From the IMG/VR virus record IMGVR_UViG_3300044621_000953, positions 1 through 37,373 of that record: a stretch of 37,373 nt of DNA. The stretch is one strand, 5' to 3'. This document shows, piece by piece, positions 2,194 to 23,588 of this stretch (positions are counted from its first letter, which is position 1; every line of letters begins with the position of its first letter). A program made the translations under genes and the position numbers. Source of the DNA: a virus. The notes beneath the pieces are model-generated. The model saw only the letters and a list, made by a program, of their open reading frames with translations, was not told the origin of the DNA and searched no databases.

Positions 2194-2552
2194 TAGGCCC
2201 GCCTCCGCTGGTCCCGCTGGAATCGCCGGAACACGTCGAACGTGATCGTGTTCGTCACCGGGTCGTTGGCGTTGGCTTTCCGCCACGCGTTGAACTGCGC
2301 CATCTCGGCCTGCTCCTCGGCCGTCAGCGGGCGCTCATCTTCCCAGCGCATCCCGAGCAGCCACTTGTCGGCCATCTGCCAGTAGCGCGGATCGGGCTGC
2401 ATCACCAGTTGCCAGCCGATGGTGTCGAGGATGCGGGCGAGCAACTGCCCGTCCCCGTCGTGCTTCTTCATCGCCCAGGCGAACGCGTCACGGGCGGATT
2501 GCTTCTTTTCCCGGCGCGGGAAGTGCTGCCAGAACTCGTCGAACGCTGTCAC
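2193..2552 (-). CDS. Phage replication-module protein (replisome organiser or helicase-loader C-terminal type)
   Basis: 119 residues. FDEFWQHFPRREKKQSARDAF matches the [F/Y]-x-x-FW-x-x-[Y/F]PR-[K/R] start of a domain found at the C-terminus of phage replication initiator and loader proteins. The later PDPRYWQMADKWLLGMRWEDE matches the closing P-x-x-WL-x-x-x-RW-x-D signature. Here the domain stands alone. The ATG overlaps the helicase-methyltransferase stop (ATGA), so the two are translated together. A role in loading or organising the replicative helicase is inferred from family and neighbour. Confidence 0.7.
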   Translation of the reverse strand: MTAFDEFWQHFPRREKKQSARDAFAWAMKKHDGDGQLLARILDTIGWQLVMQPDPRYWQMADKWLLGMRWEDERPLTAEEQAEMAQFNAWRKANANDPVTNTITFDVFRRFQRDQRRRA

Positions 2553-4825
2553 GCCGTCACCTCATCGAACAACGTCGGCACCTTCCCTGCCGCTTCCGCC
2601 GACTTCAGGTTGCCCACCGCGCAGGCGTAGTAGCTCGGCTTCAATTCAAACCCGATGAACGCCCGCCCCAGTTCCAGCGCGACGTGCCCCTCGGACGCGA
2701 TGCCCATGAACGGCGAGAGCACCACATCGCCGGGGTTGCTCCAGAGCTGCACGCCGCGCCGAATCACGTCGAGCTGCAACGGGCAGATGTGCCGCTCGTC
2801 GTCGTTGTCGCGGGCGTTCCGGAATTGCAGCGTGTCGGACGGGTTGATATCCATCCAGACCGGCGAAGCGTAGCGCTGCCAGATGTTGATGCTGTTCCGC
2901 GTGGCGTCGCCCGTCATGCGCGGGCCATCCGTGCCCCGAAAGTCGTCGAGCTTCCCGGCGACCGGCTCCGGGTTGTCGCCGCGCTTCCGCATGGTCACGA
3001 GGTAGTCGGGCACGCCCTGGCGGCTCATGGCCGAGTCCTTCACGATCTGCTTGTGCAGCAGCCCGAGCGCCTTCGTGCGCTGCATCGCGGTCACGGGGTC
3101 TTTCCAGATGCAGACCTCGGAATGAAAGATGAAGCCTTCCGACTCGAACAGCCGGATCATCTCGCCCCGGAAGTCCCGAATCCCGATCACCCCGTCGCGG
3201 GCCTTCGACAGTGGCAGGTTCATGCAGTGGAAGGACACCAGCCGGCCAGGCATGAGGACGCGGTGCAGTTCCTTGACAAGGAACGCGAAGTGCGCGGCAA
3301 ACTCATCGCCGGTCTTACAGTTGCCCATGTCTCGGTCGCTGTTGCTGTAGGTGTAGAGCGAGGCGAACGGGGGCGAGAAGATCGAATAATGCACGCTGTT
3401 GTCGGCCAGCCGCCGCACGCCCTCCACGCAATCGCCCTGGTAGGCTGTCCACCCCTCGCCGCTCGTGACCGTCTCCATGTAGGGCGTCACCGTGCGCTGC
3501 ACCTGCTGCAACTGCTCCATCGTCGTCTGCCGCATGATCTCCACCATCCTCTCGGCCATCACGCCGGATTCGCGCTCCTTGCGGCGCAGATTCTCCACCA
3601 CAGCCCCCTCGGCCCAGTCGTAGACCACGTAAGCGTTCACGGCCGACGCCTGCCCGAACCGCCAGACGCGACGGATGGCCTGATAGAACGACTCGTAACT
3701 GTGCGACAGCCCCACGAACACGACCTGATGGCAGTTCTGGAAGTTCATCCCGAACCCGCAGATGGACGCCTTGCTCACCAGCACGCGAATCTCGCCGCGC
3801 TGGAAGCCGAGCATCGCCGCCTCTTTGTGCTCGTCGGTGTCGCCGCCCGTGACTTCCACCGCGCCCTGAATCTGCGCCGCCAGCGCCGACGATTCGTCGT
3901 TTAGATGGCACCAGACGATCCACTGCCCCGGCTGATTCGCCAGCGCCACAGCCTCGGCCACGCGCAGGTCCAGAGACGACCGCTGCACGGCGCGCTGGTC
4001 GCCCAACGTGAGCGCCTGATGAGCGAACAGCCCGTGCTGCCCATTGGCGTCCGTGATGGCGTCCAGCGGCGTGTGGACCACCCGCTCGTGCATCTGAAGC
4101 GTCGGCAGCAGGAACGCGCCGTCGTCGTAGCCGAGGTCGGACGGCTTCCGAATCGTCACCGCCCACGTGCAGACCCACTCCCAGAACTTGCCCTGCGCGT
4201 GGCCCTTGATGCGCCACTGGCTCGTGTCCCCGCCGTCGTGGATAAAGAACATGGCGAGCATTTCCTCGCGGGTCATCACGCCCAAGAACTCGGCATGGTT
4301 GCCCAGCTCCATGAAATCGTTCGGGGCTGGGGTCGCGGAGCACGCCAGCCGGTAGGGCGTCCACGAGAACGCGGCGAGAATGGCCGAGCGCGTCTTGCCG
4401 TCCACGGCCTTAAGGATCGACGACTCGTCGAGCACCACGCCGACGAAGTCTTTCGGGTCGAAGTGGTCAAGCTTCTGGTAGTTCGTGACTACGATGCGGG
4501 CGTCGGTGTCGCCGGGGCGCGCTGCGAAGGCCACGCCGTGAATGCCGAACTTCTCCGCCTCCCGCACGGTCTGATGGCTCACGGCCAGCGGGGCGAGGAT
4601 GAGCACGCGGCCCCCGGTGTGCTCGCAGACCTGACGCGCCCATTCGAGTTGCATGGCCGTCTTGCCCATCCCGCAATCAGCCCAGATGCAGAACCGTCCG
4701 AGCTTGCACGCCAGCGACACGATGTCGCGCTGGAACGGGAACAGGTCAGCGGCGAACGCCCCCGCCTCGAATCCGACCGCTTCCACTCGCAGCGCTTTGG
4801 CCGCGAGGAACTCCTGGTAATCCAT
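2549..4825 (-). CDS. SNF2-type helicase fused to a beta-class DNA methyltransferase
   Basis: 758 residues. The N-terminal superfamily 2 motor has FPFQRDIV near residue 29, Walker A GMGKT (52-56), DESS (133-136), SAT (163-165), GFGMNFQ (357-363) and the motif VI QAIRRVWRFGQ (382-392). The C-terminal methyltransferase has SPPF (484-487) before LSPFMGIASEG (703-713), the permuted order of beta-class N4-cytosine or N6-adenine enzymes. The SPPF form leans towards N4-cytosine. GGGGGAG precedes ATG 4825. The motor probably lets the enzyme act while travelling along DNA, as in restriction-modification systems, but no nuclease domain is present. Helicase-methylase fusions of this kind occur in phages. 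Role inferred: DNA protection or replication-linked modification. Confidence 0.9.
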   Translation of the reverse strand: MDYQEFLAAKALRVEAVGFEAGAFAADLFPFQRDIVSLACKLGRFCIWADCGMGKTAMQLEWARQVCEHTGGRVLILAPLAVSHQTVREAEKFGIHGVAFAARPGDTDARIVVTNYQKLDHFDPKDFVGVVLDESSILKAVDGKTRSAILAAFSWTPYRLACSATPAPNDFMELGNHAEFLGVMTREEMLAMFFIHDGGDTSQWRIKGHAQGKFWEWVCTWAVTIRKPSDLGYDDGAFLLPTLQMHERVVHTPLDAITDANGQHGLFAHQALTLGDQRAVQRSSLDLRVAEAVALANQPGQWIVWCHLNDESSALAAQIQGAVEVTGGDTDEHKEAAMLGFQRGEIRVLVSKASICGFGMNFQNCHQVVFVGLSHSYESFYQAIRRVWRFGQASAVNAYVVYDWAEGAVVENLRRKERESGVMAERMVEIMRQTTMEQLQQVQRTVTPYMETVTSGEGWTAYQGDCVEGVRRLADNSVHYSIFSPPFASLYTYSNSDRDMGNCKTGDEFAAHFAFLVKELHRVLMPGRLVSFHCMNLPLSKARDGVIGIRDFRGEMIRLFESEGFIFHSEVCIWKDPVTAMQRTKALGLLHKQIVKDSAMSRQGVPDYLVTMRKRGDNPEPVAGKLDDFRGTDGPRMTGDATRNSINIWQRYASPVWMDINPSDTLQFRNARDNDDERHICPLQLDVIRRGVQLWSNPGDVVLSPFMGIASEGHVALELGRAFIGFELKPSYYACAVGNLKSAEAAGKVPTLFDEVTA

Positions 4826-4915
4826 CCGTCTCCCCCTTGCGGCCTCGCTAACAACCGGCCGCGTTCACGAAAGATTCCCGAAAAAGAAACCAAAGACACG
4901 TTCCCCGTCTCCGCT

Positions 4916-4938
4916 CCCTCCCTCGCTCCCTCCCTCCC
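4916..4938 (-). other. G-quadruplex motif in the helicase-methyltransferase leader
   Basis: The minus strand has five GGG tracts separated by A, A, AGCGA and A. This fits the G3+N1-7 rule for a stable intramolecular quadruplex. It lies about 90-110 bases upstream of ATG 4825 and would be in the transcript leader if transcription starts further upstream. Confidence 0.6.
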
Positions 4939-4954
4939 TCAAGGGCAGTTACTA

Positions 4955-4970
4955 GGAAGACTGTTCTTCC
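4955..4970 (-). other. Small perfect stem-loop
   Basis: GGAAGA and TCTTCC flank a four-base loop, a perfect 6-bp stem. No T-tract follows on the minus strand, so a terminator is unlikely. It lies beside the G-quadruplex motif in the presumed leader. Confidence 0.4.
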
Positions 4971-5296
4971 GTTCACTGCTCAGCCGCGTAATGCGTCTGC
5001 CCTCTCGGTCGGTCGGTCACTCGGTCAGTCACTTCGTCGTCGATCACGAGCCTGTGTAGCCTGCTTCGTGAGGGGATCGTCCTCACGCCCACCGCCAGCG
5101 CCTCTGGCCCCCAGCTACACCGACCCGGCCCCACGTTCAACCGGCTGACCCGGCCTTCGTGAAGCGTGGTGGAACGAGTCTTACTGTGAGTGTTGCCCGC
5201 GTCCACCGACACGGCCACCGGATGAGTCAGACGGCAGGGCGATGGTGGGTCGCCTTTTCGGGATGCATTCCCTAGCCGTCCGAGATGTTCCCGACC

Positions 5297-6139: not shown

Positions 6140-6357
6140 CGCGGCTCTTCCCAGCGCGTCGTATACGGCCACGCGTCGCCGCCGTGCCACGCGGCCAGCT
6201 CGCGCTCGAACGCTGCGAAGTTCACGTCATCATGGTAGCTCTCCCAACACGACCGGCACCACGCTTCCCCGTCCTCGTCCACGAACGCCACGGGGGCCGC
6301 GCAGAGGTCGCACGTCTCCACAGAGCAGATGCCGCAGTCGCAGACGTCGCCGGTCAT
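6136..6357 (-). CDS. Small Cys-rich zinc-binding protein, 73 residues
   Basis: The sequence has CDCGIC, CDLC and CRSC pairs within the first 45 residues, followed by an acidic and aromatic tail (WESYHDD, WHGGDAWPY). At least one zinc ribbon is likely. The start at 6357 overlaps the stop of the Lar-like gene (ATGA); an upstream ATG at 6381 would deepen the overlap. No catalytic motif and no family recognised. Confidence 0.75.
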   Translation of the reverse strand: MTGDVCDCGICSVETCDLCAAPVAFVDEDGEAWCRSCWESYHDDVNFAAFERELAAWHGGDAWPYTTRWEEPR

Positions 6358-6545
6358 CGGTAGCTCCTGCGTCGGTTCCACATGTCCTGAGCGTCATGCA
6401 AGGCCACGTTTGCGCTCACTTCGCTGTAGCACTCTGGGCCATCTGCCCCGCACGACTGACAGTGAATGTGCGCCACGGTGCCAGCGTCGAACTTGGACGA
6501 CAGGGCCACCGTCACCGTTGACCCACAGAACGGGCAGGGCATCAT
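6354..6545 (-). CDS. Lar-like restriction alleviation protein, 63 residues
   Basis: PCPFCGS at the start, HCQSCGADGPE in the middle and DMWNRR at the end give the full signature of the Lar family of phage and prophage zinc proteins: CPFCG...C..CGA.GP...A...WN.R. Rac-prophage Lar lessens host type I restriction by favouring modification. This fits with the two methyltransferases in the window, but many family members are uncharacterised, so the anti-restriction role is inferred. The start at ATG 6545 overlaps the upstream stop (ATGA). Confidence 0.8.
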   Translation of the reverse strand: MMPCPFCGSTVTVALSSKFDAGTVAHIHCQSCGADGPECYSEVSANVALHDAQDMWNRRRSYR

Positions 6546-6751
6546 GACACCGCCTCCCGCGCCTGTGCCACGGCTCGCCACGCGCTGATCCGCGCCTCAC
6601 GCTGCGCCACGATGGCCGCGTCACGCACCCGCGCCCGCTCCTGCGCCATCCGCCCGTGCTCGCCCCGCAGCCGCGCCTCGTGGCGCTCACGACGCGCTTG
6701 AAGGTCCGCGTCGAGCACGGTCGCGATGAACTCGTCACGCCTGGTCGTCAT
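6542..6751 (-). CDS. Arg/Ala-rich coiled-coil protein, 69 residues
   Basis: Starts MTTRRDEFIATVLDADLQAR and continues as one long charged helix with regular Arg, Glu and Ala. It has no Cys or membrane segment. Its start overlaps the upstream gene by 17 bases and its stop overlaps the Lar-like ATG. Family and function are not recognised. The gene is supported by tight coupling to neighbours rather than by homology. Confidence 0.6.
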   Translation of the reverse strand: MTTRRDEFIATVLDADLQARRERHEARLRGEHGRMAQERARVRDAAIVAQREARISAWRAVAQAREAVS

Positions 6752-6926
6752 CGTCCTCCCCCTTCGGTTCGTGGCGCGTGCAGCCCTCGGTGATCGGCAT
6801 CCGCCGCCCGCCGAAGGGGTAGTCCTGATTCGGCGGGGCCGCGCAGAACGCCATGCGCGGGGGCGCGTATTCCGTGTTGGCGTGGCGGCAGGTGCCGCAC
6901 GGCCCCCAGCTAGAAGGGCACGTCAT
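6735..6926 (-). CDS. Small Cys-rich protein, 63 residues
   Basis: It has CGTCRH near residues 10-15, further Cys at MAFCAAPP and GCTRHE, and an acidic tail ending EDDDDQA. A C-x2-C...C...C-x2-H site could bind one zinc ion. ATG 6926 lies inside the end of the upstream gene (17-base overlap). The acidic end is unusual among the basic neighbours. Function unknown. Confidence 0.65.
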   Translation of the reverse strand: MTCPSSWGPCGTCRHANTEYAPPRMAFCAAPPNQDYPFGGRRMPITEGCTRHEPKGEDDDDQA

Positions 6927-7152
6927 CAGACGTCACCGGCGGCTGGCCGCTACTCCACGCCGCACGCTCGTGCGGAAGTGCCTCCTCACGCGGCTTCGAC
7001 TTGAGCACGCGCCACGCCGGCCCCTTCTCGCTCGGCTTGGCGGCAAAGCACACCACCTTGACGCCGTCGATCGTGCCAGTCATGTATTCGCCTTTCGCGC
7101 CGCGCTTGAGCCACAGCGCGCCGATCTCGTCGGGGTTCTTCTCGTATGCCAT
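6910..7152 (-). CDS. DUF736-like protein with an SSB-type C-terminal tip
   Basis: 80 residues. The body, IGALWLKRGAKGEYMTG followed by VKVVCFAAKPSEKGPAWRV, resembles the DUF736 pattern of a small beta barrel (IGxLW...G..Y..G.I......V..F). The last residues, SDDVPF, match the acidic tip of bacterial single-strand binding protein (DDDIPF), which docks repair and replication partners. It follows YqaJ with a TAATG overlap and ERF just before. A single-strand-binding or SSB-mimic role in recombination is inferred from the tip and context; the body is too short to prove an OB fold by eye. Confidence 0.65.
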   Translation of the reverse strand: MAYEKNPDEIGALWLKRGAKGEYMTGTIDGVKVVCFAAKPSEKGPAWRVLKSKPREEALPHERAAWSSGQPPVTSDDVPF

Positions 7153-7808
7153 TACGCCGTCTCCTTAATGACGCTCCACCCACGGAGCGCCGCTTCTTCG
7201 GTGTCCACTTCCGCCAGGAACTTCCGCACCGCCGCCTCGTGCGCCGCGATCTCGTCGTCTTCCCGCACCAGCCGTGCGATGTAAACCTGCATCGACGCCG
7301 GCAGCGCCGGGCAGTAGCTCACGAAGTCGAGCCAGCCCGCCCCGGTCAACCACATCTGGTGCAGCAGTTGGGCGCGATGCCCCGCCGGAATCCCGCCAGC
7401 CCGCAGATACCCGACGTGATTCGCCGGGCGCGGGCACTTGATTTCCAGCAGCCCCGCGAAGTCGTTCACCACGCCATCGGGTGACGCGCCGGCCATCAGC
7501 TCCGAGTCCGCGAGGAAACCGACACGCGAGACGAGCGTGCCCGACGTCGCCTCGTAGGCCGCGAACGCCGCCGGCTCGAGGTCGATGCCGCGCTGCATAT
7601 CCTCGTTGACGAACACGTCATCCTGGGGCTGGCCGGTCAGGCGCTCGCAGACCAACTGCATCCGCAAATCCCGCCGCGCCGCTGGCTCGCCGCCGCTCTT
7701 GAGCGTGGACGTGATGTGCTTCGCGTTGCTGGCGGTCAGTCGGCCGAGACGGGCCGCAAACCACTCCTGACTGCGCTGGGGGGCGTCGATGACGCGGAAC
7801 GGTCTCAT
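7152..7808 (-). CDS. YqaJ-type viral recombinase / lambda-type 5'-3' exonuclease
   Basis: 218 residues from ATG 7808, which overlaps the ERF stop (ATGA). Motifs: SQEWFAARLGRLTAS (13-27), RGIDLEP with Glu78, GASPDG with Asp111, LLEIKCPR with Glu122 and Lys124, and HRAQLLHQMWLTG (144-156). These are the PD-(D/E)XK residues of the YqaJ/lambda exonuclease family, which resects duplex ends to leave 3' single strands. Together with the ERF gene it forms a two-component recombination system used in replication, repair or genome circularisation. Confidence 0.92.
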   Translation of the reverse strand: MRPFRVIDAPQRSQEWFAARLGRLTASNAKHITSTLKSGGEPAARRDLRMQLVCERLTGQPQDDVFVNEDMQRGIDLEPAAFAAYEATSGTLVSRVGFLADSELMAGASPDGVVNDFAGLLEIKCPRPANHVGYLRAGGIPAGHRAQLLHQMWLTGAGWLDFVSYCPALPASMQVYIARLVREDDEIAAHEAAVRKFLAEVDTEEAALRGWSVIKETA

Positions 7809-8386
7809 GCCGTCACCTTCGCCGCGTCGTCCTTGAGGGCTTCCCATCCCTTGGCGTCTACTAGCGTCATGTGGGCGCGCAATTCCGTCGGTGATTCCAG
7901 CCACTCGGTCTTGAGCGCCGCGGTGCCCTTCTTCGCCGCCGCCCTCAGATCAGCGATGAACTGCGCGTAACCGTCGGGTGCCGCCACTGGCGCAGACTGC
8001 TGGGGGGGCGTCGTCTTCCCGCTGGCCGCGTTGCCGTCGTCGTCCTCGGGGCAGACCCCCACGATGGCCGCGAGTCCGTAGCGGCGGGCGTAGGTGATGG
8101 CCGAGCCGAGGCCCTGCATGTCGCCCTTCGTGTTCAGCAGCGGCACGTAGCCGATAATCTGCTCGCCGGATTCGTGAACCAGCGTCGTCGCCAGCGCCCA
8201 CTGTCCCTCGATGAGGCACGGCGTCTGCACGATGCCGAGCCCGTTGGAGTGCAGCGCCTCTCGGCAGGCATCCCACACCGCGCCGAGGTCGGCATACTTG
8301 TTCTTGAAGTGCGGGTTCGTGCTGTCCTTCTTCGCGCCGTCGATGCGCGCCTGCGCCTTCACGAGCGCCGTTGCCAATTCCTTCAT
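7805..8386 (-). CDS. ERF-family single-strand annealing protein
   Basis: 193 residues. FKNKYADLGAVWDACREAL (27-45), GIVQTP, LATTLVH, and GLGSAITYARRYGL (about 91-104) are the hallmark blocks of the ERF family first seen in phage P22. A Pro/Ala-rich linker at about 125-135 separates a C-terminal helical domain. The protein anneals complementary single strands exposed by its exonuclease partner. It is coupled to the YqaJ gene by ATGA and overlaps the gene before it by four bases, so all three are translated together. Confidence 0.92.
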   Translation of the reverse strand: MKELATALVKAQARIDGAKKDSTNPHFKNKYADLGAVWDACREALHSNGLGIVQTPCLIEGQWALATTLVHESGEQIIGYVPLLNTKGDMQGLGSAITYARRYGLAAIVGVCPEDDDGNAASGKTTPPQQSAPVAAPDGYAQFIADLRAAAKKGTAALKTEWLESPTELRAHMTLVDAKGWEALKDDAAKVTA

Positions 8387-8580
8387 CGCGTTCCCCCTTC
8401 GATCTTGTCGAGCATCACCTCGAGCGCCGCGCCGAGCACGTCACTCGCGGACAGTTCGTCGCGCAAACAAATCCCGCAGCCTGCCTCGTTCTCGTCCACG
8501 CCATGCGGGCAGTAGGACGGCATCCGTTCGGGCCACTCGCCCTCGCGGGGGTCGGTCGCCATCACCCAGCGGTCACTCAT
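8383..8580 (-). CDS. Small zinc-binding protein, 65 residues
   Basis: It has CPHG and CGICL, separated by about nine residues, giving a possible Cys/His metal site, and a helical C-terminus (LGAALEVMLDKIEGG). It overlaps the ERF start by four bases and the upstream gene by eight. Function not recognised. The consistent coupling supports it as a gene. Confidence 0.7.
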   Translation of the reverse strand: MSDRWVMATDPREGEWPERMPSYCPHGVDENEAGCGICLRDELSASDVLGAALEVMLDKIEGGTR

Positions 8581-8779
8581 GATCCCCCTCCTTCACGAGT
8601 CGCAGCGACTCGTGCGGCACATTGAACCCCGCGCCGCGCATCGCGTCCTCCACCAGCTTGAGCACGTCGTCGATGGTCACGACGTCGCCCGAGACGGTGA
8701 CGCGCCGCTCGCCAGACAGCGCGTCGAACGTGATGGTCAGCATGTCGCCCACGCGTTCCACGAAGTCGTCGCCGCTCAT
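8573..8779 (-). CDS. Hypothetical protein, 68 residues
   Basis: Starts MSGDDFVERVGDMLTITFDA. The pattern is a short helix, beta hairpin (ITFDALSGERRVTVSGDVVTI) and helix (DDVLKLVEDAMRG). No Cys, no membrane segment and no known motif. The start overlaps the upstream stop (ATGA), and the stop overlaps the next start by eight bases. A small alpha-beta accessory protein of the recombination operon is all that can be said. Confidence 0.65.
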   Translation of the reverse strand: MSGDDFVERVGDMLTITFDALSGERRVTVSGDVVTIDDVLKLVEDAMRGAGFNVPHESLRLVKEGDHE

Positions 8780-8973
8780 CCCCGCACCTGCGGCAGTCCC
8801 GAGCTAAACCCGGCCTTCGGCGCGGCCTGGCCGAGCACCATGTGCGCCGTGTAGATGCGCGCCATCTGCTTGTTAATCTCGCTCTCGTTCGCCTGCCAGC
8901 GGGGCATCTGTGCCCGCACCGCCGCCGAGAACGTCTCGCGGTCGGTCTGTGCGTCAATCCACCATGAAGCCAT
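8776..8973 (-). CDS. Hypothetical protein, 65 residues
   Basis: Starts MASWWIDAQTDRETFSAAVR at ATG 8973, preceded by GGGAGG at good spacing. A helix around residues 10-50 is followed by a Gly/Pro-rich end. No family recognised. The ribosome binding site overlaps the end of the 28-residue membrane peptide gene just upstream. A longer frame reaches 9024 but lacks a good start. Confidence 0.65.
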   Translation of the reverse strand: MASWWIDAQTDRETFSAAVRAQMPRWQANESEINKQMARIYTAHMVLGQAAPKAGFSSGLPQVRG

Positions 8974-8975
8974 GT

Positions 8976-9062
8976 CTACCTCCCGAAGAACAGTTCCGCC
9001 GCCACCTGACACACCCACGCCCACGCGCAGATGAGGAGCACGAGGAGAAACGCCTCCGTCAT
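8976..9062 (-). CDS. 28-residue single-span membrane peptide
   Basis: ATG 9062 overlaps the upstream stop (ATGA). The peptide has a short N-terminus (MTEA), a hydrophobic stretch FLLVLLICAWAWVC and an amphipathic end, and stops at 8976. It is short enough to be missed by gene callers. It fits the gap exactly between two coupled genes. Inner-membrane insertion is likely. Its job is unknown. Confidence 0.55.
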   Translation of the reverse strand: MTEAFLLVLLICAWAWVCQVAAELFFGR

Positions 9063-9295
9063 CGCCTCACCACTACCGGGTAGTCGGTCAAAGCATCGAC
9101 AGCGACAGTGAACGTCTTGCGCGCCTTAATGCGAATCTCGCCAAGCGACTCGTAGACGCTTGCAGTCGGGTCAGGTTCGCCGCCGAAATGCCCGAGCGCG
9201 GTATACACCGCCATCGCTTCGTCCTCCGTCAGCGTGAGCACGTATTCCACGGGCGGCGTCGGCTGCACGATCTCTCGCTTCTCACACTTCGCCAT
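9059..9295 (-). CDS. Hypothetical protein, 78 residues
   Basis: Starts MAKCEKREIVQPTPPVEYVL; the body has YVLTLTEDEAMAVYTALGH, a beta strand plus helix pattern seen in many small uncharacterised phage proteins. It has a strong ribosome binding site AGGGGGAG before ATG 9295. Its stop overlaps the start of the 28-residue membrane peptide. No function recognised. Confidence 0.7.
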   Translation of the reverse strand: MAKCEKREIVQPTPPVEYVLTLTEDEAMAVYTALGHFGGEPDPTASVYESLGEIRIKARKTFTVAVDALTDYPVVVRR

Positions 9296-9303
9296 GTCTC
9301 CCC

Positions 9304-9429
9304 CTACCGCAGCACCAGCGCCGCGCCGTAACCCACCACCACACCCACCACGAACGCGATCAGCGTGCAGACCGCCATCGCCACGAGAATCACGCCGCCG
9401 TCCGGTTCCGTCGTTTCGCCTCGCTCCAT
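9304..9429 (-). CDS. 41-residue single-span membrane protein
   Basis: ATG 9429 with AGGGGGG just upstream. After a charged N-terminus (MERGETTEPDGG) comes a hydrophobic segment (VILVAMAVCTLIAFVVG) continuing into a Val/Gly/Ala-rich end. It overlaps the end of the zinc-ribbon gene by 40 bases in another frame. Two other micro membrane proteins lie at 8976 and 26109. Function unknown; in phages such peptides can be lysis, superinfection or host-envelope effectors. Confidence 0.55.
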   Translation of the reverse strand: MERGETTEPDGGVILVAMAVCTLIAFVVGVVVGYGAALVLR

Positions 9430-9617
9430 GCTGCCCCCCTGTGTCTGTTGTGCGCGGCGTGCGCGGCAGGTGTCGCCCGCAGTTGCACCGTCGCCCCGCT
9501 GCCTCTCGCTTTACCGACTTCCCGCCTCACTGCTCGCTGTGACTCGCGGCACACCACACATACCCCCGTGCGGTTGCTCAACTTCGCCGGCCGCACCCCA
9601 CAGGATCGGCATGTCAC
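9390..9617 (-). CDS. Zinc-ribbon protein, 75 residues
   Basis: CRSCG at residues 3-7 and CVVC about 17 residues later form a four-Cys ribbon. A basic helical tail follows, ending KRRNRTAA. The start is GTG 9617, whose GTGA overlaps the stop of the 53-residue gene, so expression probably depends on translation from the leaderless message. A nucleic-acid-binding role is likely from charge and zinc site; no family is recognised. Confidence 0.7.
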   Translation of the reverse strand: MTCRSCGVRPAKLSNRTGVCVVCRESQRAVRREVGKARGSGATVQLRATPAAHAAHNRHRGAAWSEAKRRNRTAA

Positions 9618-9775
9618 GCCTTCGCCTTGCGCGGCCGTCCGCCTTTTTTCCCATTGAGCCGACTTGCCGCCGCACGCTTGGGGCTCTTGGTCGATCCGGC
9701 GCGCCGCGCCATCTCGCTGACAATCGCCCGTGCGAGCGCGACTTGCTCGTCGGTGGGTTCGTTTCGCTTCACCAT
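9614..9775 (-). CDS. 53-residue basic protein with AT-hook-like tail, predicted leaderless
   Basis: Starts MVKRNEPTDEQVALARAIVS and ends in a KKGGRPRKAKA tail; GGRPRK is AT-hook-like, expected to bind the DNA minor groove. ATG 9775 lies 7 bases after a -10 box and has no ribosome binding site, so it should be translated from a leaderless mRNA. It is the first gene of the long early operon that runs to 5418. The SPKRAAASRLNGKKGG block recalls the TPAKIAAARLNAAK block of the plus-strand gene at 1380. Position and charge suggest an autoregulator or nucleoid-type protein; this is inference. Confidence 0.68.
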   Translation of the reverse strand: MVKRNEPTDEQVALARAIVSEMARRAGSTKSPKRAAASRLNGKKGGRPRKAKA

Positions 9776-9782
9776 GTCGAGC

Positions 9783-9812
9783 AGTCTAGCGCGCTAGGTT
9801 TGCGCGTGTCAA
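9783..9812 (-). promoter_or_regulatory. Strong sigma70-like promoter of the early operon
   Basis: Minus-strand TTGACA (9812-9807), 18 bases, TAGACT (9788-9783), then 7 bases to ATG 9775. The layout matches the promoter at 1318-1347 in -35 sequence, spacer length and distance to ATG. Transcription should start within a base or two of the AUG. Confidence 0.68.
9786..9797. promoter_or_regulatory. 12-bp perfect palindrome overlapping the -10 box, candidate operator
   Basis: CTAGCGCGCTAG is its own reverse complement and shares three bases with the -10 box TAGACT. A protein bound here would block the promoter. CTAGCGCG recurs at 10233-10240, just upstream of the next leaderless promoter. Confidence 0.5.
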
Positions 9813-9826
9813 CGGTTATTTCCGTT
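9811..9826. promoter_or_regulatory. Inverted repeat beside the -35 box, candidate operator
   Basis: AACGG and CCGTT flank six AT-rich bases. The repeat overlaps the -35 TTGACA by two bases and extends upstream of it, a usual position for a repressor or activator dimer site. Confidence 0.45.
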
Positions 9827-9845
9827 GTTGTGTTTTGCGTAGTCA

Positions 9846-9863
9846 TTGCGCAAATCAGCGCAA
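9846..9863. repeat. Inverted repeat across the HNH stop codon
   Basis: TTGCGC and GCGCAA flank AAATCA, a perfect 6-bp repeat covering the HNH stop codon at 9855-9857. It could form a hairpin in the HNH message that separates it from the early operon, or be a third protein site of this control region. No T-tract follows. Confidence 0.4.
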
Positions 9864-10193
9864 CGGGAACAAGCCCTGTTGAGGCGCGTCAGCGGCAGCG
9901 CTCTCGCGCTTCACCCTGCCACGCGCCCACGTCCTGACGCGGTGGCAATTAGCGCACACAACGTCGCACTTGGACGCCTCACGGATGATGGTTTCGAGCG
10001 CCGCCCCGCCAGACACCATGGCCCCAATATCGTGCGACTTGTCCACGCTGACGCGATGGTCAAAATCCATAGCGCAGGGGTGAAACGTGCCGCCACAGTC
10101 TGCGCACGGCACGGATTTCATGGCGTTCACAGCTAGCTTGATTTCGCGGCGTCGCCCCTTGAACGCTGGACGCATCGAATACGGGATAGGCAT
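9855..10193 (-). CDS. HNH-type zinc protein, 112 residues, predicted leaderless
   Basis: VPCADCGGTFHPCAMDFDHR (about residues 28-47) followed by KCDVVCANCHRVRTWAR gives the CxxC...DH...CxxCH pattern of HNH endonucleases common in phages. The N-terminus is basic. ATG 10193 has a -10 box TAAAAT six bases upstream and no Shine-Dalgarno sequence. Its own promoter, separate from the operon before it, suggests different timing. It may cut DNA during packaging or recombination, or act as a homing nuclease; the sequence cannot decide. Confidence 0.82.
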   Translation of the reverse strand: MPIPYSMRPAFKGRRREIKLAVNAMKSVPCADCGGTFHPCAMDFDHRVSVDKSHDIGAMVSGGAALETIIREASKCDVVCANCHRVRTWARGRVKRESAAADAPQQGLFPLR

Positions 10194-10231
10194 ATTGAGA
10201 TTTTACCTATAAAAACAGGCAAAATCAATAT
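10192..10231. promoter_or_regulatory. Large imperfect inverted repeat covering the HNH promoter
   Basis: On the minus strand GATTTTGCCT and AGGTAAAATC are complementary in nine of ten positions across an 8-base loop, and flanking ATATTGA/TCAATAT arms extend it with a two-base bulge. It covers both promoter boxes and is very AT-rich for this genome. It could be an operator or an RNA hairpin ending transcription from upstream. Confidence 0.5.
10200..10228 (-). promoter_or_regulatory. Promoter for the leaderless HNH gene
   Basis: Minus-strand TTGATT (10228-10223), 17 bases, TAAAAT (10205-10200), then 6 bases to ATG 10193. This is the third case in the window of a -10 box ending 6-7 bases before a start codon without a ribosome binding site. 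Confidence 0.62.
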
Positions 10232-10251
10232 CCTAGCGCGACTGATTTCCG

Positions 10252-10548
10252 CTACTCGCGGTAATAGCTCGCCCAGAGCGCCGCATACATGGCAAGGTCC
10301 GTCCGCGTGTCCGCGATGCTCTCGTTGTTCGGCGTCTTGCCCGCGCTGGTCAGCTCCCGCAGGCGCGCCAGCTTCACGCCGATAAGACTCGCGAACACAG
10401 CATCGACGCCGGTAAAGCCTTCCGCGACTTGCGCGGCCTGCCGGAAATTGGACAGCGGGTCGCCGTCTTGCGCGTAGTCGGCATTCTTGCGGGCGTGTAG
10501 TGCGTGCATCTCCCGTAGGAGCGAGTCAAAGCGCGGATTGTCTGCCAT
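10252..10548 (-). CDS. DUF1599-like protein, 98 residues
   Basis: FDSLLREMHALHARKNADYA, then DPLSNFRQAAQVAEGF and a C-terminal DTRTDLAMYAALWASYYRE, match the pattern of the DUF1599 family of small helical phage proteins (K-x-x-DY...NF...D...D.A.Y), discussed as nucleotide-metabolism associated. Lys/Asp/Glu residues on helices resemble all-alpha NTP pyrophosphatases, but the EExxE...ExxD motif is not clear. ATG 10548 follows an upstream stop at 10564 with a weak GGAA site. It ends the run of genes after the lysis module. Confidence 0.65.
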   Translation of the reverse strand: MADNPRFDSLLREMHALHARKNADYAQDGDPLSNFRQAAQVAEGFTGVDAVFASLIGVKLARLRELTSAGKTPNNESIADTRTDLAMYAALWASYYRE

Positions 10549-10563
10549 TCGAGATTCCAGAAT

Positions 10564-10911
10564 CTATGAGTCCACCATCACGGGCTTGGTCATCCGCTTG
10601 GCCGTTTTGCGATAGGCGCGATACCACCAGCGCCGCTCTTGGTCGCTCATCGCCGTGACGAGCCGCCGCGCCGTGTCGCTCACGCGCCGCTCGCCCCATC
10701 GCGGATAGCGACGGTGCAGCAGCTCGTGCAGCAGCGTGTCCACGACGTTCGGCGCGGGGTCCACGTAGACGTTCCCGGAGCTAGGCTCATACAGCCCCTC
10801 CACGAGCTCGCCGTCGCTCTGGATTTCCGCCTGGAACACGCGCCCGCGTGCGAGTTCGGCGCGCAGCTCGGTCATGAGCGTGTCGAACGTCTCGACCTTG
10901 ATAGTCCTCAC
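10564..10911 (-). CDS. Small HExxH zincin-like protein, 115 residues
   Basis: VVDTLLHELLHRRYPRWGER contains HELLH, the zinc-binding and catalytic motif of zincin metallopeptidases. It lies on a helix preceded by a strand (SGNVYVDPAP), as in minimal SprT, WLM or ImmA-type folds. A third zinc ligand cannot be fixed by eye; an acidic or His residue after RYPRWGE is expected. The start is GTG 10911 overlapping the exonuclease stop as GTGA. A phage peptidase here could process host regulators or DNA-protein crosslinks; this is open. Some HExxH phage proteins are not proteases. Confidence 0.7.
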   Translation of the reverse strand: MRTIKVETFDTLMTELRAELARGRVFQAEIQSDGELVEGLYEPSSGNVYVDPAPNVVDTLLHELLHRRYPRWGERRVSDTARRLVTAMSDQERRWWYRAYRKTAKRMTKPVMVDS

Positions 10912-11576
10912 GGCGTGTATCCTTCGGCGCGAGACGTCCCGCTATACCACTTCCTCGGCGCGGCCAGATACCCCGCCGCCAGCAGTTCCTTGCGCAGCGC
11001 GATGTGCTGTTTCACGTCGCCCACGACGCGCCGCCGCACCTCCGCCAGCCCTTCCGGCGTGAGCCGGTTCGCGGCCCGCCACTGGCTCTGGTTCATCGAC
11101 TCCTTCTTGTTCGAGAGCCGGAACATCGCGCCGAGGCTTTCCTGCGACAGACTCAGCCCCTTGGAGCGCATCATCTGGGTCTTCGTATCCTGCGCCCAGG
11201 TATCGCGCAGCGCCGGCATCCGGCACTCCATCAGCGCACCGTTGATCATCGGGAGGTCATGGCCGGTGATGTAGTGCCCCGTCACCATGTCGGCCTCGTT
11301 GTAGGCTGACACAAACTCGCGGAGGATTTCTGTCAGCGGCACCTCCCCGAGCAGGCGCACCGTGACGCGATTCGGCGCATCCGTCCACGCCCACGCAATC
11401 GCCGTGACTTCGCCCGTCGTGAAGTCGGAGCCGAGATAACTAAGCGGACGGTTTTCGATGTCGAAGTCGAGCACGCGGGGCGCGCGACTTGGCACGAGCA
11501 CGCGGGCGGGCTGCACGCGAATCGCGGGCATCTGCGGCGGGGGCTGTTTCGGCTGCACGGCGATTCGTATGAGCAT
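10908..11576 (-). CDS. DEDD-family 3'-5' exonuclease (DnaQ/RNase H fold)
   Basis: 222 residues from ATG 11576, preceded by AGGTGG. VLDFDIENRPL (35-45) is exonuclease motif I (D-x-E). Motif II resembles GHYITGHDLPMIN, and VVGDVKQHIALRK has the Asp of motif III. The order and spacing fit DEDD exonucleases. No polymerase domain is present, so it is a free-standing nuclease that could proofread, trim ends or degrade RNA. The first 30 residues are Pro-rich and overlap the preceding gene by 137 bases; ATG 11531 is another possible start but lacks a ribosome binding site. Confidence 0.78.
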   Translation of the reverse strand: MLIRIAVQPKQPPPQMPAIRVQPARVLVPSRAPRVLDFDIENRPLSYLGSDFTTGEVTAIAWAWTDAPNRVTVRLLGEVPLTEILREFVSAYNEADMVTGHYITGHDLPMINGALMECRMPALRDTWAQDTKTQMMRSKGLSLSQESLGAMFRLSNKKESMNQSQWRAANRLTPEGLAEVRRRVVGDVKQHIALRKELLAAGYLAAPRKWYSGTSRAEGYTP

Positions 11577-11769
11577 CGGCCACCTGGAGGTCAAACATCG
11601 CGCCCGCTTCCAGCCCCAGCACGGGACGGCCAGCCTTCAACGCTTCGATCTCGGGATACAGCACGTCCTCCGTCCAGTCGATCCGCTCGAAGGTCTGCCG
11701 TAGGTTGAACTCAGCGCGCCGGAGCGCCTTGAGCTTCTTTTCTGTGCGACTGTCTCTCGACAAGCTCAC
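11440..11769 (-). CDS. Hypothetical helical protein, 109 residues
   Basis: GTG 11769 has an excellent AAGGAG seven bases upstream. Residues 1-65, including LRRAEFNLRQTFERIDWTED and YPEIEALKAGRPVLGLEAG, look like a real helical protein. The last 40 residues are Arg/Ala-rich and share DNA with the exonuclease N-terminus, so that part may be a frame-overlap product. It overlaps the zinc protein by 59 bases at the start. The function is unknown. Confidence 0.55.
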   Translation of the reverse strand: MSLSRDSRTEKKLKALRRAEFNLRQTFERIDWTEDVLYPEIEALKAGRPVLGLEAGAMFDLQVADAHTNRRAAETAPAADARDSRAARPRARAKSRAPRARLRHRKPSA

Positions 11770-12082
11770 GCAGTCTCTCCTTGATGTGCGCGTTGATGCG
11801 CCGTGCGTCTTCGATGGTTCGCGCCGTCGAGTGATACTCTTGGCCGATCACGATGCGCCGCGCATTGTGTCGTCGGTTGACGGCCTTCCGCGCCTCGCCG
11901 GCGTAGTAGCGCGCATTCCGCGCCCGCCCTCCAGGTGACTGATGCACGCACCGCGCGCAGCGGCAATCCCGGTTGCGTGCGCGAGACGGCAACGCCGGCC
12001 GTTCGTGGCACACGCGACACGTTACCCGCGTTCCATCATCTGCGCCAGTCGTTCCGCTCGTGCGCCGACTTGCTTCGCCCAT
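11711..12082 (-). CDS. Zinc-finger protein overlapping the endolysin end, 123 residues
   Basis: CRVCHERPALPSRARNRDCR and CARC form a four-Cys finger near the N-terminus, followed by a long basic helix region (RNARYYAGEARKAVNRRHNAR, then RRINAHIKERLRELVERQ). This resembles phage HNH-associated or Zn-finger DNA-binding proteins. ATG 12082 is the nearest start but lies 61 bases inside the lysozyme gene and lacks a good ribosome binding site, so the true start is uncertain. It may be coupled to lysozyme translation. Confidence 0.6.
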   Translation of the reverse strand: MGEASRRTSGTTGADDGTRVTCRVCHERPALPSRARNRDCRCARCVHQSPGGRARNARYYAGEARKAVNRRHNARRIVIGQEYHSTARTIEDARRINAHIKERLRELVERQSHRKEAQGAPAR

Positions 12083-12441
12083 AGGCTCAGACGCATCCCT
12101 TCCGCCGCTGTCGTGAAGTCGCCCCGCCGCATGGCTGAAAGCGTGCGGACAAAGCCCCGGAGACGCGGCCAGCCGAGGTTGAAACACATGTTGATCAAGA
12201 CGCGCTGACGCACGGGCGACAGCGTGACCCACCACGGCACGCCCCGGTTCAGGTCGCCGATACAGAGGTCGATATCGCTCCGGAGCAGGTAGTCGATCTC
12301 GTCGTCGGACAGGCCGCGATCCGTCAGGTTCCGGCCGACGCCGATGGTCAGCTTGCCCACCGTATCGGTATAGGGAAACGGCTCCACGCCCTCGTCCCGG
12401 CGTAGCTCCGCGATCAGTGTGGCGCGCTCGGCGTCTGTCAC
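12022..12441 (-). CDS. Endolysin, GH24 phage lysozyme
   Basis: 139 residues. Cleaves the beta-1,4 bond between MurNAc and GlcNAc in peptidoglycan. The T4-lysozyme catalytic triad is present with exact spacing: Glu17 in RRDEG, Asp26 in YTDT and Thr32 in LTIGVG. VRQRVLINMCFNLGWPRLRGF is the conserved core helix of the family. Start is GTG 12441 overlapping the holin-like stop as GTGA. A long upstream extension in frame covers the holin gene and is rejected. No signal peptide, so release would depend on the holin. Confidence 0.93.
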   Translation of the reverse strand: MTDAERATLIAELRRDEGVEPFPYTDTVGKLTIGVGRNLTDRGLSDDEIDYLLRSDIDLCIGDLNRGVPWWVTLSPVRQRVLINMCFNLGWPRLRGFVRTLSAMRRGDFTTAAEGMRLSLWAKQVGARAERLAQMMERG

Positions 12442-12647
12442 GACTGCACCAGATGCACCACCATCCACGCGAGCACGGCGGCGCCGAGCCCATACGCCCA
12501 CGACAGCACGGCGATGGCTTTCTCGGCTGCACGCACGCGCCCGTTCGTGATCTTTTGCAGCTCGATGATCTGCTCGTTCTGCGCAGACAACGCGCGGAAC
12601 TTTTCGTCGAAAAAATCGCGGAGCGTCACGTGCGGCTGGTCGTCCAT
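12438..12647 (-). CDS. Holin-like membrane protein, 69 residues
   Basis: A soluble N-terminal half (HVTLRDFFDEKFRALSAQNE), a probable short coiled coil (about 12-45) and a C-terminal hydrophobic segment (AVLSWAYGLGAAVLAWMVVH). The single-span topology with a cytoplasmic N-terminal coil is seen in some small phage holins and anchor proteins. It lies directly before and overlaps the endolysin gene, so a role in endolysin release is likely. ATG 12647 overlaps the upstream stop (TGATG). It could instead be a spanin-like or DUF-type accessory protein. Confidence 0.68.
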   Translation of the reverse strand: MDDQPHVTLRDFFDEKFRALSAQNEQIIELQKITNGRVRAAEKAIAVLSWAYGLGAAVLAWMVVHLVQS

Positions 12648-13126
12648 CACGCAATCTCAAAAGTGACGGAGGCGTAAATCGCCGTGTTGTTGGTGGAGGC
12701 GTTCCAGTTGGAGGCCGAGCTGGATTTGAAAAATTCGATATACGACGCGTTGACGATGTAGCCGCCGAAGCCTTCCGTGCCGTTGTCGGAATACCAATAC
12801 ACGCCACGGGACGCGCCGATGAGCGAGACGCCACCGGGCAGTGCCACCCGGAGGCCGGTGCCGGTGCCAGCGACCGTCGTGGTGATCAGGTTCAGATGCA
12901 CATGCATCGTCTTGCCAATCACGACGTATTTGTGTAGGGCCACATCGCCCGACGCCACCGTCCACGTGATCGTGCCGCTGCCGGTGAAGTTCGCCGCGTT
13001 GAAAGACGGATTCGTCCACGCCTCGCCGATGTAGTCGCGGATCGGATTCCAGACGCTCGCGTTGTTGACAATCGTGCCGGTCGTGTTGCTGCCGTCGTCG
13101 TCGGTAATCGTGGGCCACGTCGCCAT
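12647..13126 (-). CDS. Small tail-tip or fibre protein, 159 residues
   Basis: Starts MATWPTITDDDGSNTTGTIV and continues NASVWNPIRDYIGE, a pattern seen at the N-terminus of phage tail-tip attachment proteins. The rest is beta-rich, with Thr, Ser, Asn and Gly (GTGTGLRVALPGG), like a receptor-contact beta sandwich. It follows the tail hub gene by six bases and precedes the lysis pair, the usual place for a fibre or distal tail protein. AAGGAG lies about 12 bases before ATG 13126. Receptor binding is inferred. Confidence 0.6.
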   Translation of the reverse strand: MATWPTITDDDGSNTTGTIVNNASVWNPIRDYIGEAWTNPSFNAANFTGSGTITWTVASGDVALHKYVVIGKTMHVHLNLITTTVAGTGTGLRVALPGGVSLIGASRGVYWYSDNGTEGFGGYIVNASYIEFFKSSSASNWNASTNNTAIYASVTFEIA

Positions 13127-13132
13127 GTGTGC

Positions 13133-14782
13133 TTACTCTCCTTGCAGGACTTGCCAGAGCGTGGGCCGGCGCACGGCGCCCGCGGTGATCGTGCGCTTCG
13201 GCCCCTTTGTCTGGGTCAGCGTCCCGAAGCCGTCGATGGTCATGTCGTGGACCGTGAGCGTGCCCACAATGGAATTGCCCAGCGGCTCGGCCGGGGCCGT
13301 CATCGCCACGAACACCGGCCCGCCGATTCCGTAGTGCTCCTCACGGGTCGTGAAGGTGAGCGTGGACCACTCGGAGGGGTCTCCCCGCTGTAATGCCGCC
13401 GACGCGACCGCAATCGCGCCAGCGACCGAGAGCCGTGCGTCTTCGATGGTGTGCGCGAACAGCCCGAACCCGGTGCTGCCCGTTAATGAACTCACCCGGT
13501 CAACCGCCGCCGAATTCACACGCGTCACGGCCACGCGCAGCGGCGTGCCCGCCGCCAGAAAGCGATTCGGCACGGGCGCGGACGTCACGATGAGGTTATA
13601 GAGCCCCGTGATTTCAGACAGCGTGGGGATGTCCGACGTGATCGCGCCGGGCCCAGAACTCGGAACGTGGTAGCCGTAGGCGATACTCCCGACCGTCGCC
13701 GAGAACACCCCCATCACGGATGCGCAATAGACATACTGCCCCGCGATGCCATACCAGCGCGGACTCTCGAACGGCCGGACGCTGCTGATGTTCTTCGACA
13801 CCGCCACCAGCGTCGTCGCGCCGGCCAATGTGTCGAGGAACGTGCTGGCCACCATCGTGGGCTCGAACGACTGCTCTGGCCGATAGATCAGACTCCCGAT
13901 GTGCAGGTGGTCCCCGAGCATCCACTGCTCGGTCGTGCCCGCTAGGATGTCCGCATCGACGCCCTCGTAGTTCGAGATAATCGAGGCTGTTGCAATGGGC
14001 ACCACCGCGTGTGTGTCGAGATTCACGTCCGCCAGCGTCGGCTGCATCGCGCCGAACACATGGACCCGCGTGAACACCCGCGACAAGTCCGTCACCTGAT
14101 GGCTCACGCCCCAGACATGCGCCGACGTGGACGTGATGGTGTTCGGGACGCCGGGGAGCGAGTTGATCGCCCCGAAGGCGTGGATGTCGCCCTCGTGGTC
14201 GACATACCACTCCGCATCGACGCTCTTGAACATGCGGCCGATGGCCTGTGAAATCGGCTCGCTCGGCCCCACACTAAATTGCTCCACCAGCGGTAGCGTC
14301 GGATCGATGTGGTTCGCGGTGAAGCCTAGCGACGACACATTGGGCGACGTGACCGCCAGCATCCCCTGCACCAGCGAGCGCGGCGCGAGGTTGGTGGCCG
14401 CAAAGCCAGGCACCACGCGTGACCGGTCGATGTCAAACAGCCATCCTGTCGCGTCACAGCGATACGTCGGGCGACGATCATCGTTGCGTTGCGCAACCCG
14501 TTCGGCCTTGATGAGTCGCCCCGCAAAAAGCTTATTGCTCGTCGTCCCATGGCCGAGGGTGACGACCTGCCCCGCTTGCGGGACGAACCCAGATCCCCCT
14601 TTGAAGTCGAACGAGCACCGATGCGGCTCTTCGCCCGTGTTGAGGTCGATCCGGAGCGACCCTTGAATCAGGCCAGACCGCAGCGCGGTACCGATGCGCA
14701 CAGGCGTCACATCTTTGGCAAAGTAGCCAGAGCGGAACGCCGCCGCCCGCCCCACGTTCGCAATCGCCAACATGCCCGGCAT
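13133..14782 (-). CDS. Tail hub / tail-associated protein, 549 residues
   Basis: A beta-rich protein without low-complexity repeats. Early blocks such as IDLNTGEEPHRCSFDFKGG and VTLGHGTTSNKLFAGR resemble the domains of phage hub proteins (gp27-like, Tal N-terminus). It lies directly after the tape measure gene (TGATG overlap) where siphoviruses place the distal tail and tail-associated proteins. No lysozyme or peptidase motif is visible. It probably caps the tail tube and holds the receptor-binding part. Confidence 0.68.
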   Translation of the reverse strand: MPGMLAIANVGRAAAFRSGYFAKDVTPVRIGTALRSGLIQGSLRIDLNTGEEPHRCSFDFKGGSGFVPQAGQVVTLGHGTTSNKLFAGRLIKAERVAQRNDDRRPTYRCDATGWLFDIDRSRVVPGFAATNLAPRSLVQGMLAVTSPNVSSLGFTANHIDPTLPLVEQFSVGPSEPISQAIGRMFKSVDAEWYVDHEGDIHAFGAINSLPGVPNTITSTSAHVWGVSHQVTDLSRVFTRVHVFGAMQPTLADVNLDTHAVVPIATASIISNYEGVDADILAGTTEQWMLGDHLHIGSLIYRPEQSFEPTMVASTFLDTLAGATTLVAVSKNISSVRPFESPRWYGIAGQYVYCASVMGVFSATVGSIAYGYHVPSSGPGAITSDIPTLSEITGLYNLIVTSAPVPNRFLAAGTPLRVAVTRVNSAAVDRVSSLTGSTGFGLFAHTIEDARLSVAGAIAVASAALQRGDPSEWSTLTFTTREEHYGIGGPVFVAMTAPAEPLGNSIVGTLTVHDMTIDGFGTLTQTKGPKRTITAGAVRRPTLWQVLQGE

Positions 14783-19596: not shown

Positions 19597-20456
19597 CAGG
19601 CGCGCTCCCATCGGAAGGGACTGCCGGCCGTGTCCCGCGTCTGCGCTTCGTCGTCGCGGTCGAGCACGTCATCGGTCGGCGCGTCCGCGTCGAACTCGCC
19701 GCCCACGAGCGCCAGCGCCCGCTGAAACGCCAGGGCGGCCTCGGTCTCGTAGTAGGTCGCCCGATCCGCCCACGGTCCATCCTGCGTCATCGGCGCTTCG
19801 CGAAAAATGGATGCCAGCACCTTGTAGGCCACCGGACCGCAGAGCACCGAGCGACGGATGGTCGTGATCTGCCCGATGCGCGCCGACGTCGGCACGGCAG
19901 ACAGCCGGAGACGGGCGTAGTAATACGGCGCCGAGTGATTCAGCGACCGCAGCACCCAGTCGTGCGGCACCGCCCAGATGACCGACCCGCCCCTCGAGAA
20001 CGGCCGGTGCGGCGTCGCCCGCGTCTCGTCGCTCACCTGCACGGCGCGCCATGCATCGCGCCAGAGTTCGACGGTCAGGGTGGAGCCCACCGTGGACACC
20101 GCGTCCAGCATGCGCACCGACACGCCGCGGAACTGCTGCGCCGAGCCGATGGCGAGATAGTCCGAGGACGCCGCGAGTGTGGCCGCCAGATCGATGTCGT
20201 CCGTCGTGGCGTTCGTGGCCGCGTCGGTGACGTCCGTGAACACGCCGGAGGTCACGCCGTAGACGACATCCGCCGTATGCCGCGTGCGGAAACGCTCCGG
20301 GGCAAACCCGGCCACGCGGAGCTGCGGCCAGAGCCAGTCCTCCAGCACTTTCGTGCGTCGCGCTTCCCAATTCTCGACGCCGAAGCGCTTGAGGATCTGG
20401 CCCTCATACGCCACGAGGTCCGAGTCATTGAGCAGATCACCGGGGTGCCAACTCAT
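19596..20456 (-). CDS. Head-tail connector-like protein, 286 residues
   Basis: Starts MSWHPGDLLNDSDLVAYEGQ and is mixed alpha-beta. The C-terminal part, AYKVLASIFREAPM with YYETEAALAFQRALALVGGE, resembles the helical end of phage head completion proteins. ATG 20456 overlaps the glycosyltransferase stop (ATGA). Position between the head genes and the tail terminator indicates a neck role. No homologue family is certain by eye; a decoration protein is the alternative. Confidence 0.55.
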   Translation of the reverse strand: MSWHPGDLLNDSDLVAYEGQILKRFGVENWEARRTKVLEDWLWPQLRVAGFAPERFRTRHTADVVYGVTSGVFTDVTDAATNATTDDIDLAATLAASSDYLAIGSAQQFRGVSVRMLDAVSTVGSTLTVELWRDAWRAVQVSDETRATPHRPFSRGGSVIWAVPHDWVLRSLNHSAPYYYARLRLSAVPTSARIGQITTIRRSVLCGPVAYKVLASIFREAPMTQDGPWADRATYYETEAALAFQRALALVGGEFDADAPTDDVLDRDDEAQTRDTAGSPFRWERA

Positions 20457-23401: not shown

Positions 23402-23588
23402 GCGCCGCCTCGTCTTTCCGGGGGCGACCGGGGCCGCGCTTCTCGTCAAGGCGCGCCTTGAGCGACGCAATCTCGTCGTCCTTCTTCGCCACCAGCGCAC
23501 ACAGGTAGTCAGTCCAGTCGCGGAATCTGGAGTCGCGGATATCGCTCGGCGACTTCAGCCGCCGCATTTCGTCGAGTATCGGGTCCAT
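23394..23588 (-). CDS. Small protein with AT-hook-like motif, 64 residues
   Basis: Starts MDPILDEMRRLKSPSDIRDS and has a helical coil (LVAKKDDEIASLKARLDEKR) and RGPGRPRKDEAAHE at the end. The GPGRPRK motif resembles an AT-hook; related tails occur in the small terminase and in the 53-residue early protein. GTG 23597 is another possible start. It overlaps the glycosyltransferase gene by eight bases (ATGAGTAA). It could bind DNA or assist the large enzyme; undetermined. Confidence 0.65.
   Translation of the reverse strand: MDPILDEMRRLKSPSDIRDSRFRDWTDYLCALVAKKDDEIASLKARLDEKRGPGRPRKDEAAHE

Follow-up and report, generated by a model that had tools for sequence, protein, structure and literature searches.

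Is the tight cluster of inverted repeats around one viral promoter an autoregulated genetic switch, as it appears at first sight? The question is raised by 81 bases (positions 9783–9863) of IMG/VR virus record IMGVR_UViG_3300044621_000953, which was analysed whole and is here called the window (37,373 bp, linear, 66% G+C). An initial annotation, made from the sequence alone, had placed in these bases a promoter, a perfect 12-bp palindrome overlapping its -10 box, an AACGG-N6-CCGTT repeat at its -35 box and a TTGCGC-N6-GCGCAA repeat at the preceding stop codon. All four elements are present (Table 1), the arms of the -35 repeat being 6 bp, one longer than claimed. Our analysis indicates that the locus is genuinely regulatory and that its -10 box probably carries an operator; the reading as an autoregulated switch is only partly supported, autoregulation being a property that we infer.

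All genes assignable in the window lie on the minus strand. Genes for terminase, portal, major head protein and tape measure occupy the higher coordinates, and recombination- or replication-type genes the lower ones (an Erf-like annealing protein, a RecE-like exonuclease, a helicase-methyltransferase and a cytosine methyltransferase); the linear record is probably a fragment. The promoter and repeats sit in a 79-bp gap between an HNH endonuclease gene and the gene of a 53-aa basic protein. Along the minus strand, the HNH stop lies within TTGCGC-N6-GCGCAA, followed by CAACGG-N6-CCGTTG, the -35 box TTGACA, an 18-bp spacer with CTAGCGCGCTAG, the -10 box TAGACT, 7 nt and the ATG. A 70-residue protein had also been put forward as a gene product; the conserved frame here is that of the 75-aa gene, and the 70-aa ORF (9511–9723, TTG start), rejected as a gene or second regulator, is probably not a gene.

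Table 1 Positions of the features discussed, in coordinates of the window
Feature	Position	Strand	Remarks
Sigma-70-type promoter	9783–9812	minus	-35 TTGACA 9812–9807, 18-bp spacer, -10 TAGACT 9788–9783; 10/12 consensus matches
HNH gene promoter, TTGATT-17-TAAAAT	10200–10228	minus	Second promoter; 9/12 consensus matches
Third promoter of leaderless type, TTGACA-18-TAGCAT	1318–1347	minus	7 nt before ATG at 1310 (50-aa protein)
Perfect palindrome CTAGCGCGCTAG	9786–9797		Overlaps spacer and -10 box (last three bases start TAGACT); single copy in record
Inverted repeat CAACGG-TTATTT-CCGTTG	9810–9827		6-bp arms; last bases overlap -35 box
Inverted repeat TTGCGC-AAATCA-GCGCAA	9846–9863		Spans HNH stop codon
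Half-site CTAGCGCG	10233–10240		Just upstream of -35 box of HNH promoter
HNH endonuclease gene, 112 aa	9855–10193	minus	PHROG 3106, E 1.5e-26; upstream gene of cassette; predicted leaderless
53-aa basic protein gene	9614–9775	minus	GKKGGRPRK tail; first gene behind promoter; predicted leaderless start, no Shine-Dalgarno sequence
75-aa protein gene	9390–9617	minus	Conserved next gene of early operon; Identity 88% in G001; in G003, 56% across 45 aa
Exchangeable cassette (HNH and 53-aa genes)	9604–10251	minus	About 650 bp; replaced in L161, both flanks 96–98% identical

Several further features of the window were recorded. An int-alpA RNA of Rfam (RF02996) is matched at 5215–5282 on the minus strand (44.5 bits against a gathering score of 35.8), and a Lar-like restriction alleviation protein at 6354–6581 minus (PHROG 599, E 2.2e-9), in the same record as DNA methyltransferase genes at 1–1161 and 2549–4825. 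The latter is a single 758-aa ORF on the minus strand, the first part of which matches DNA helicase families and the last part DNA methyltransferase families. Five copies of AGGGAG, counting both strands, lie within 75 bp at 4914–4990, and the rest of the record has none. Amid the structural genes, a 1015-aa ORF (20453–23500 minus) combines two glycosyltransferase-like parts and one methyltransferase-like part.

The promoter fits a housekeeping sigma factor and is predicted to be active. In a consensus scan it ranks among the three best sense-strand promoters of the record, and the 5.2 kb between 8000 and 13200, where 0.6 promoter-like sites would be expected, hold just this one and one other. 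Its -10 box ends 7 nt before the ATG of the 53-aa gene at 9775, with no Shine-Dalgarno sequence, which is the arrangement of leaderless promoters (-10 box 5–8 nt before the start codon). This spacing had escaped the initial annotation, as had the HNH promoter, where the -10 box sits 6 nt before the ATG at 10193. The transcription start is expected to coincide with the A of the ATG at 9775 or to lie beside it, and the mRNA of the 53-aa gene should be leaderless.

The same design recurs. Only three sense-strand promoters with at least 9 of 12 consensus matches exist in the record (at 9812, 10228 and 1347), each with an ATG 6–7 nt past the -10 box, and among 34 gene starts examined just these three have TAnnnT at leaderless distance. 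A Shine-Dalgarno core is found at none of the three, and many other genes of the record have one. For the 58-aa ORF at 1158–1334 minus, the start is probably the ATG at 1310 instead, giving a leaderless gene of 50 aa. The closest relative (locus L161, in the 22-kb record G001) and locus L162 share TTGACG-18-TAGAAT-6-ATG; in a more distant relative, record G003 (locus L163), a Cro-like gene is preceded by TTGACG-18-AATACT-7-ATG and a 118-aa ORF by TTGACA-17-TAGAAT-6-ATG, with one more sense-strand site placing a GTG at 9 rather than 6–7 nt. Judged by sequence alone, the locus is most regular in its leaderless messages, and such messages are suggested for the early promoters of this uncultured phage group.

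Whether the repeats are more than chance was examined against shuffled sequence. None of 2000 dinucleotide shuffles of the same 81 bp held three inverted repeats (shuffle mean 0.12) at a threshold of arms of at least 6 bp and loops of at most 8, which was set after the repeats had been seen. About 0.06% of all 81-bp positions in the record hold three such repeats, some of them at other places; the whole record has 103 such repeats, fewer than the 140 in its shuffles. A lone perfect 12-bp palindrome is unremarkable, as the record holds seven even palindromes of at least 12 bp. The excess over shuffles therefore gives moderate support to a cluster that did not arise by chance, the threshold having been chosen after the fact. 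Further support comes from half-sites. TTGCG or CGCAA occurs five times in 9800–9863, a cluster that ranks fourth among the 5-mer clusters of the record, and the half-site CTAGCGCG, which had been noted at 10233 and is real, is confined to two loci in the 37-kb record, both at promoters of the HNH and 53-aa genes. This confinement suggests a binder specific to the cassette.

These figures also bear on the view that the palindromes are incidental, the locus having a strong leaderless promoter, constitutively on early in infection, that lies in a somewhat self-complementary, AT-richer gap. The post hoc thresholds, the other palindromes and the few other three-repeat stretches in the record would suit it, as would the absence of CTAGCGCGCTAG, even with one mismatch, from G001, G002 and G003. 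We nevertheless hold it to be unlikely, given the shuffles, the TTGCG half-site cluster and the overlap of two of the three repeats with promoter boxes. We regard CTAGCGCGCTAG at the -10 box as a probable operator and CAACGG-N6-CCGTTG as a possible second binding site. No near match to the region was found in cultured phages. A search for TTGACA-N9-12-CTAGCGCGCTAG in other phages gave nine stretches of two sequence types only, none before a tail-family gene (see below), and these were taken as chance.

The repeat at the HNH stop may be a binding site or may form a hairpin where the HNH message ends, of which the hairpin appears more likely. The read-through RNA of 9776–9870 (minus strand) folds better than its shuffles by 3.7 standard deviations (z -3.7), and L161 has a strong hairpin at the equivalent place, just past the preceding stop. 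Both observations would also fit an account in which the repeats act not as DNA operators but as RNA hairpins that terminate or protect the HNH message and control read-through. That account is decidedly unlikely: a scan yielded no minus-strand terminator at the locus, no T-run follows the hairpins on that strand, and the predicted start comes after the -10 palindrome, which is hence outside the leaderless message.

Comparison with relatives places the locus in a segment that is exchanged. L161 is 97.6% identical to the window over 10252–12658 and 96.4% over 6542–9603. In place of 9604–10251 it carries about 647 bp of other sequence, with ORFs of 49, 79 and 49 aa and another leaderless promoter and without the palindromes of the window; the beginning of this other cassette is also present in L162. 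The last ORF of the L161 cassette, directly before the conserved 75-aa gene, encodes LGRRGGLKKSQRKTDAARANAKRPRPRKAA, which looks like a divergent relative of the 53-aa protein's tail family; it abuts the previous ORF and has no promoter of the leaderless kind of its own. The initial annotation had tied its reading to conservation of the palindromes in relatives that keep the coding sequences. This is in part contradicted, since the closest relative has near-identical flanks, retains a gene of the tail family ahead of the 75-aa gene and lacks CTAGCGCGCTAG in its entire record, yet it is the whole cassette that was exchanged and not the operator alone.

In G003, whose 98- and 115-aa genes are 76–81% identical to those of the window at the protein level, the same place is taken by a pair of HTH genes on one strand with an 88-aa HTH gene diverging from them, followed downstream by homologues of the 75-, 82-, 65- and 68-aa genes of the window. 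By this synteny, the 53-aa gene stands where G003 has its Cro-like gene. We read 9604–10251 as an exchangeable control cassette of the phage group, swapped as a unit; no relative with the same HNH and 53-aa cassette was found. Together with the leaderless geometry, cassette exchange is the best supported part of our reading. Related phages exchange a whole control cassette at one place, which may hold an HTH switch, a small-protein cassette or an HNH gene with a tail protein, and the site marks a regulatory locus of this uncultured group.

The 53-aa protein had been described as small and basic with an AT-hook-like tail. Its C-terminal half, AGSTKSPKRAAASRLNGKKGGRPRK, recurs as a tail in many phage and bacterial proteins, with G27, N41, K43, R47 and P48 invariant in an alignment of 20 sequences. 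The bacterial DUF2442 proteins L202 and L209 (matches to PF10387) end in LGRxGGxxKSxxKAAAARxNGKKGGRPRK, and plasmid proteins annotated as DUF2442 carry the same tail. By sequence, the 53-aa protein is this basic tail in free-standing form, the tail with which many DUF2442 (DhiA-type antitoxin) proteins end. In phages, the tail stands before an HTH domain (L069), after a putative ribbon-helix-helix domain (L019, called by appearance, no Pfam match) or alone. As to an AT-hook, a GRP core is seen by eye; the Pfam AT_hook profile gave no match at E<=0.1, the motif being too short for a reliable profile.

AlphaFold2 modelled the 53-aa protein as helices at residues 9–28 and 32–41 with an unstructured tail (pLDDT 79, pTM 0.40). 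Pfam and PHROGs gave it no meaningful match, neither to PF10387 nor to a known DNA-binding family. A comparison with solved structures returned one repeat protein (8erw) with no single stretch significant and was set aside, and the strings NGKKGGRP and AACCTA-N-TAGGTT led to nothing relevant in the literature. From the company that its family keeps, a DNA-binding role is plausible. The L069 gene (2962–3381), in which the tail module is fused to the HTH, lies behind TCGACA-AAAACCTAAGTAGGTTG-TAACCT and is a good candidate for the tail as part of a repressor.

Several stand-alone tail genes elsewhere have a perfect or near-perfect palindrome, different in sequence from CTAGCGCGCTAG, filling the gap between the -35 and -10 boxes. 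One example is L059 (TTGACA-AAACCTAACAGATAGGT-TATACT-6-ATG); others are L014, L035, L039, L058, L060, L061, L069 and L229, the last from a spirochaete genome. A shared family operator, AACCYA-N4-6-TRGGTT, was considered and rejected, its bulk frequency in phages being no higher than that of an arbitrary control palindrome; it is kept as a lead only. Matches of at least 9/10 occur in 6 of 42 tail-family upstream regions against 1.2% of control ORFs, a post hoc enrichment of a motif picked from the same sequences, and a motif-free test was weak (3/9 against 21/230, P 0.05). The window has one good half of the motif (AAACCTA-GCGCGC-TAGACT, 8/10 by eye, a score of at least 8 being reached by 6.6% of control regions). 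In phages generally, TTGACA-AAACCTA-N-TAGGT has 15 distinct sites, 13 with a -10 box at the right distance, before many unrelated genes, and the control palindrome has 20, 14 with a -10 box. It is safe to say that phages commonly place a palindrome between the promoter boxes and that its sequence takes many different forms. This fits the reading of CTAGCGCGCTAG as an operator and does not identify its binder. Quite different spacer palindromes were likewise readily found in IMG/VR phage promoters (L174–L192 and L249–L274), and phages might be grouped by type of operator in a systematic survey.

The operator could be real and be read by a protein encoded outside the cassette, either a repressor of the host or a regulator that the phage encodes on a missing part of the genome, with the 53-aa protein just the first early gene product, for example of host-takeover or nucleoid type. 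Spacer palindromes before so many unrelated genes would agree with this, as would a record that is linear and may be incomplete; the confinement of CTAGCGCG to the two cassette promoters speaks for a local binder instead, and we consider an outside reader somewhat unlikely.

The explanation that we prefer as a whole, to which we give about an even chance, is a leaderless early promoter in an exchangeable cassette, with CTAGCGCGCTAG as its operator and a cassette-encoded binder, opening the early and recombination genes of a siphophage-like virus. A housekeeping-type promoter would start a leaderless message with the 53-aa gene, behind which come other genes, Shine-Dalgarno sequences preceding many of them. 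Binding of a protein at CTAGCGCGCTAG would mask the -10 box and exclude RNA polymerase. The likeliest binder would be encoded in the cassette, with the 53-aa tail protein as first candidate; were it to bind, a negative autoregulatory loop would limit early transcription, and the CTAGCGCG half-site at the HNH promoter would be a weaker second target. The repeat at the HNH stop would more likely form a hairpin closing the HNH message. Against this explanation stand the mutual differences of the palindromes, their absence from the closest relative, the post hoc repeat statistics and the lack of a known DNA-binding family for the 53-aa protein, whose AT-hook-like tail would favour AT-rich DNA over CTAGCGCGCTAG.

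A bolder generalisation is that stand-alone GKKGGRPRK-tail proteins (about 50 aa, two helices and a GRP tail) are widespread, unnamed minimal phage autorepressors that bind palindromes inside their own, often leaderless, promoters, one of which here replaced a Cro/CI switch. We think this improbable; if autorepression by tail proteins proves true, it would assign a function to a large number of phage ORFs that lack annotation. The locus offers a small and readily testable candidate pair of protein and operator.

Among known systems, AT-hook proteins have a flexible tail in which basic residues surround a GRP core. A core of this kind is seen by eye in the basic tail of the 53-aa protein, as a single motif and with no Pfam match. 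Phage regulators can be translated from leaderless mRNAs, as is lambda cI from PRM, with the -10 box 6–7 nt before the ATG and no Shine-Dalgarno sequence, as in the window; here the design is read from sequence, and several promoters of the record and its relatives share it. DhiTA is a DUF4160/DUF2442 toxin-antitoxin system whose antitoxin DhiA belongs to the DUF2442 (PF10387) family (PMC8198452). DUF2442/DhiA proteins have the basic C-terminal tail in common with the 53-aa protein, the tail not being a defining part of PF10387; the domain itself is missing from the 53-aa protein, next to which no DUF4160 partner was seen. The closest comparison is with the lambda-type CI/Cro switch, as in G003 (L163/L171). 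A bistable switch is not indicated in the window, since nothing diverges (8000–13200 has only minus-strand promoter-like sites) and no HTH repressor or regulator family was found among the record proteins scanned, which were part of the ORFs of a possibly incomplete record; nor are there repeated copies of one operator, the three palindromes differing. What the locus does share with the G003 switch is a good promoter at the head of the early operon, the same syntenic position between the 98-aa gene and that operon, a leaderless first early gene, and a palindrome at the promoter, which in G003 is TGAAAT-N5-ATTTCA and covers it.
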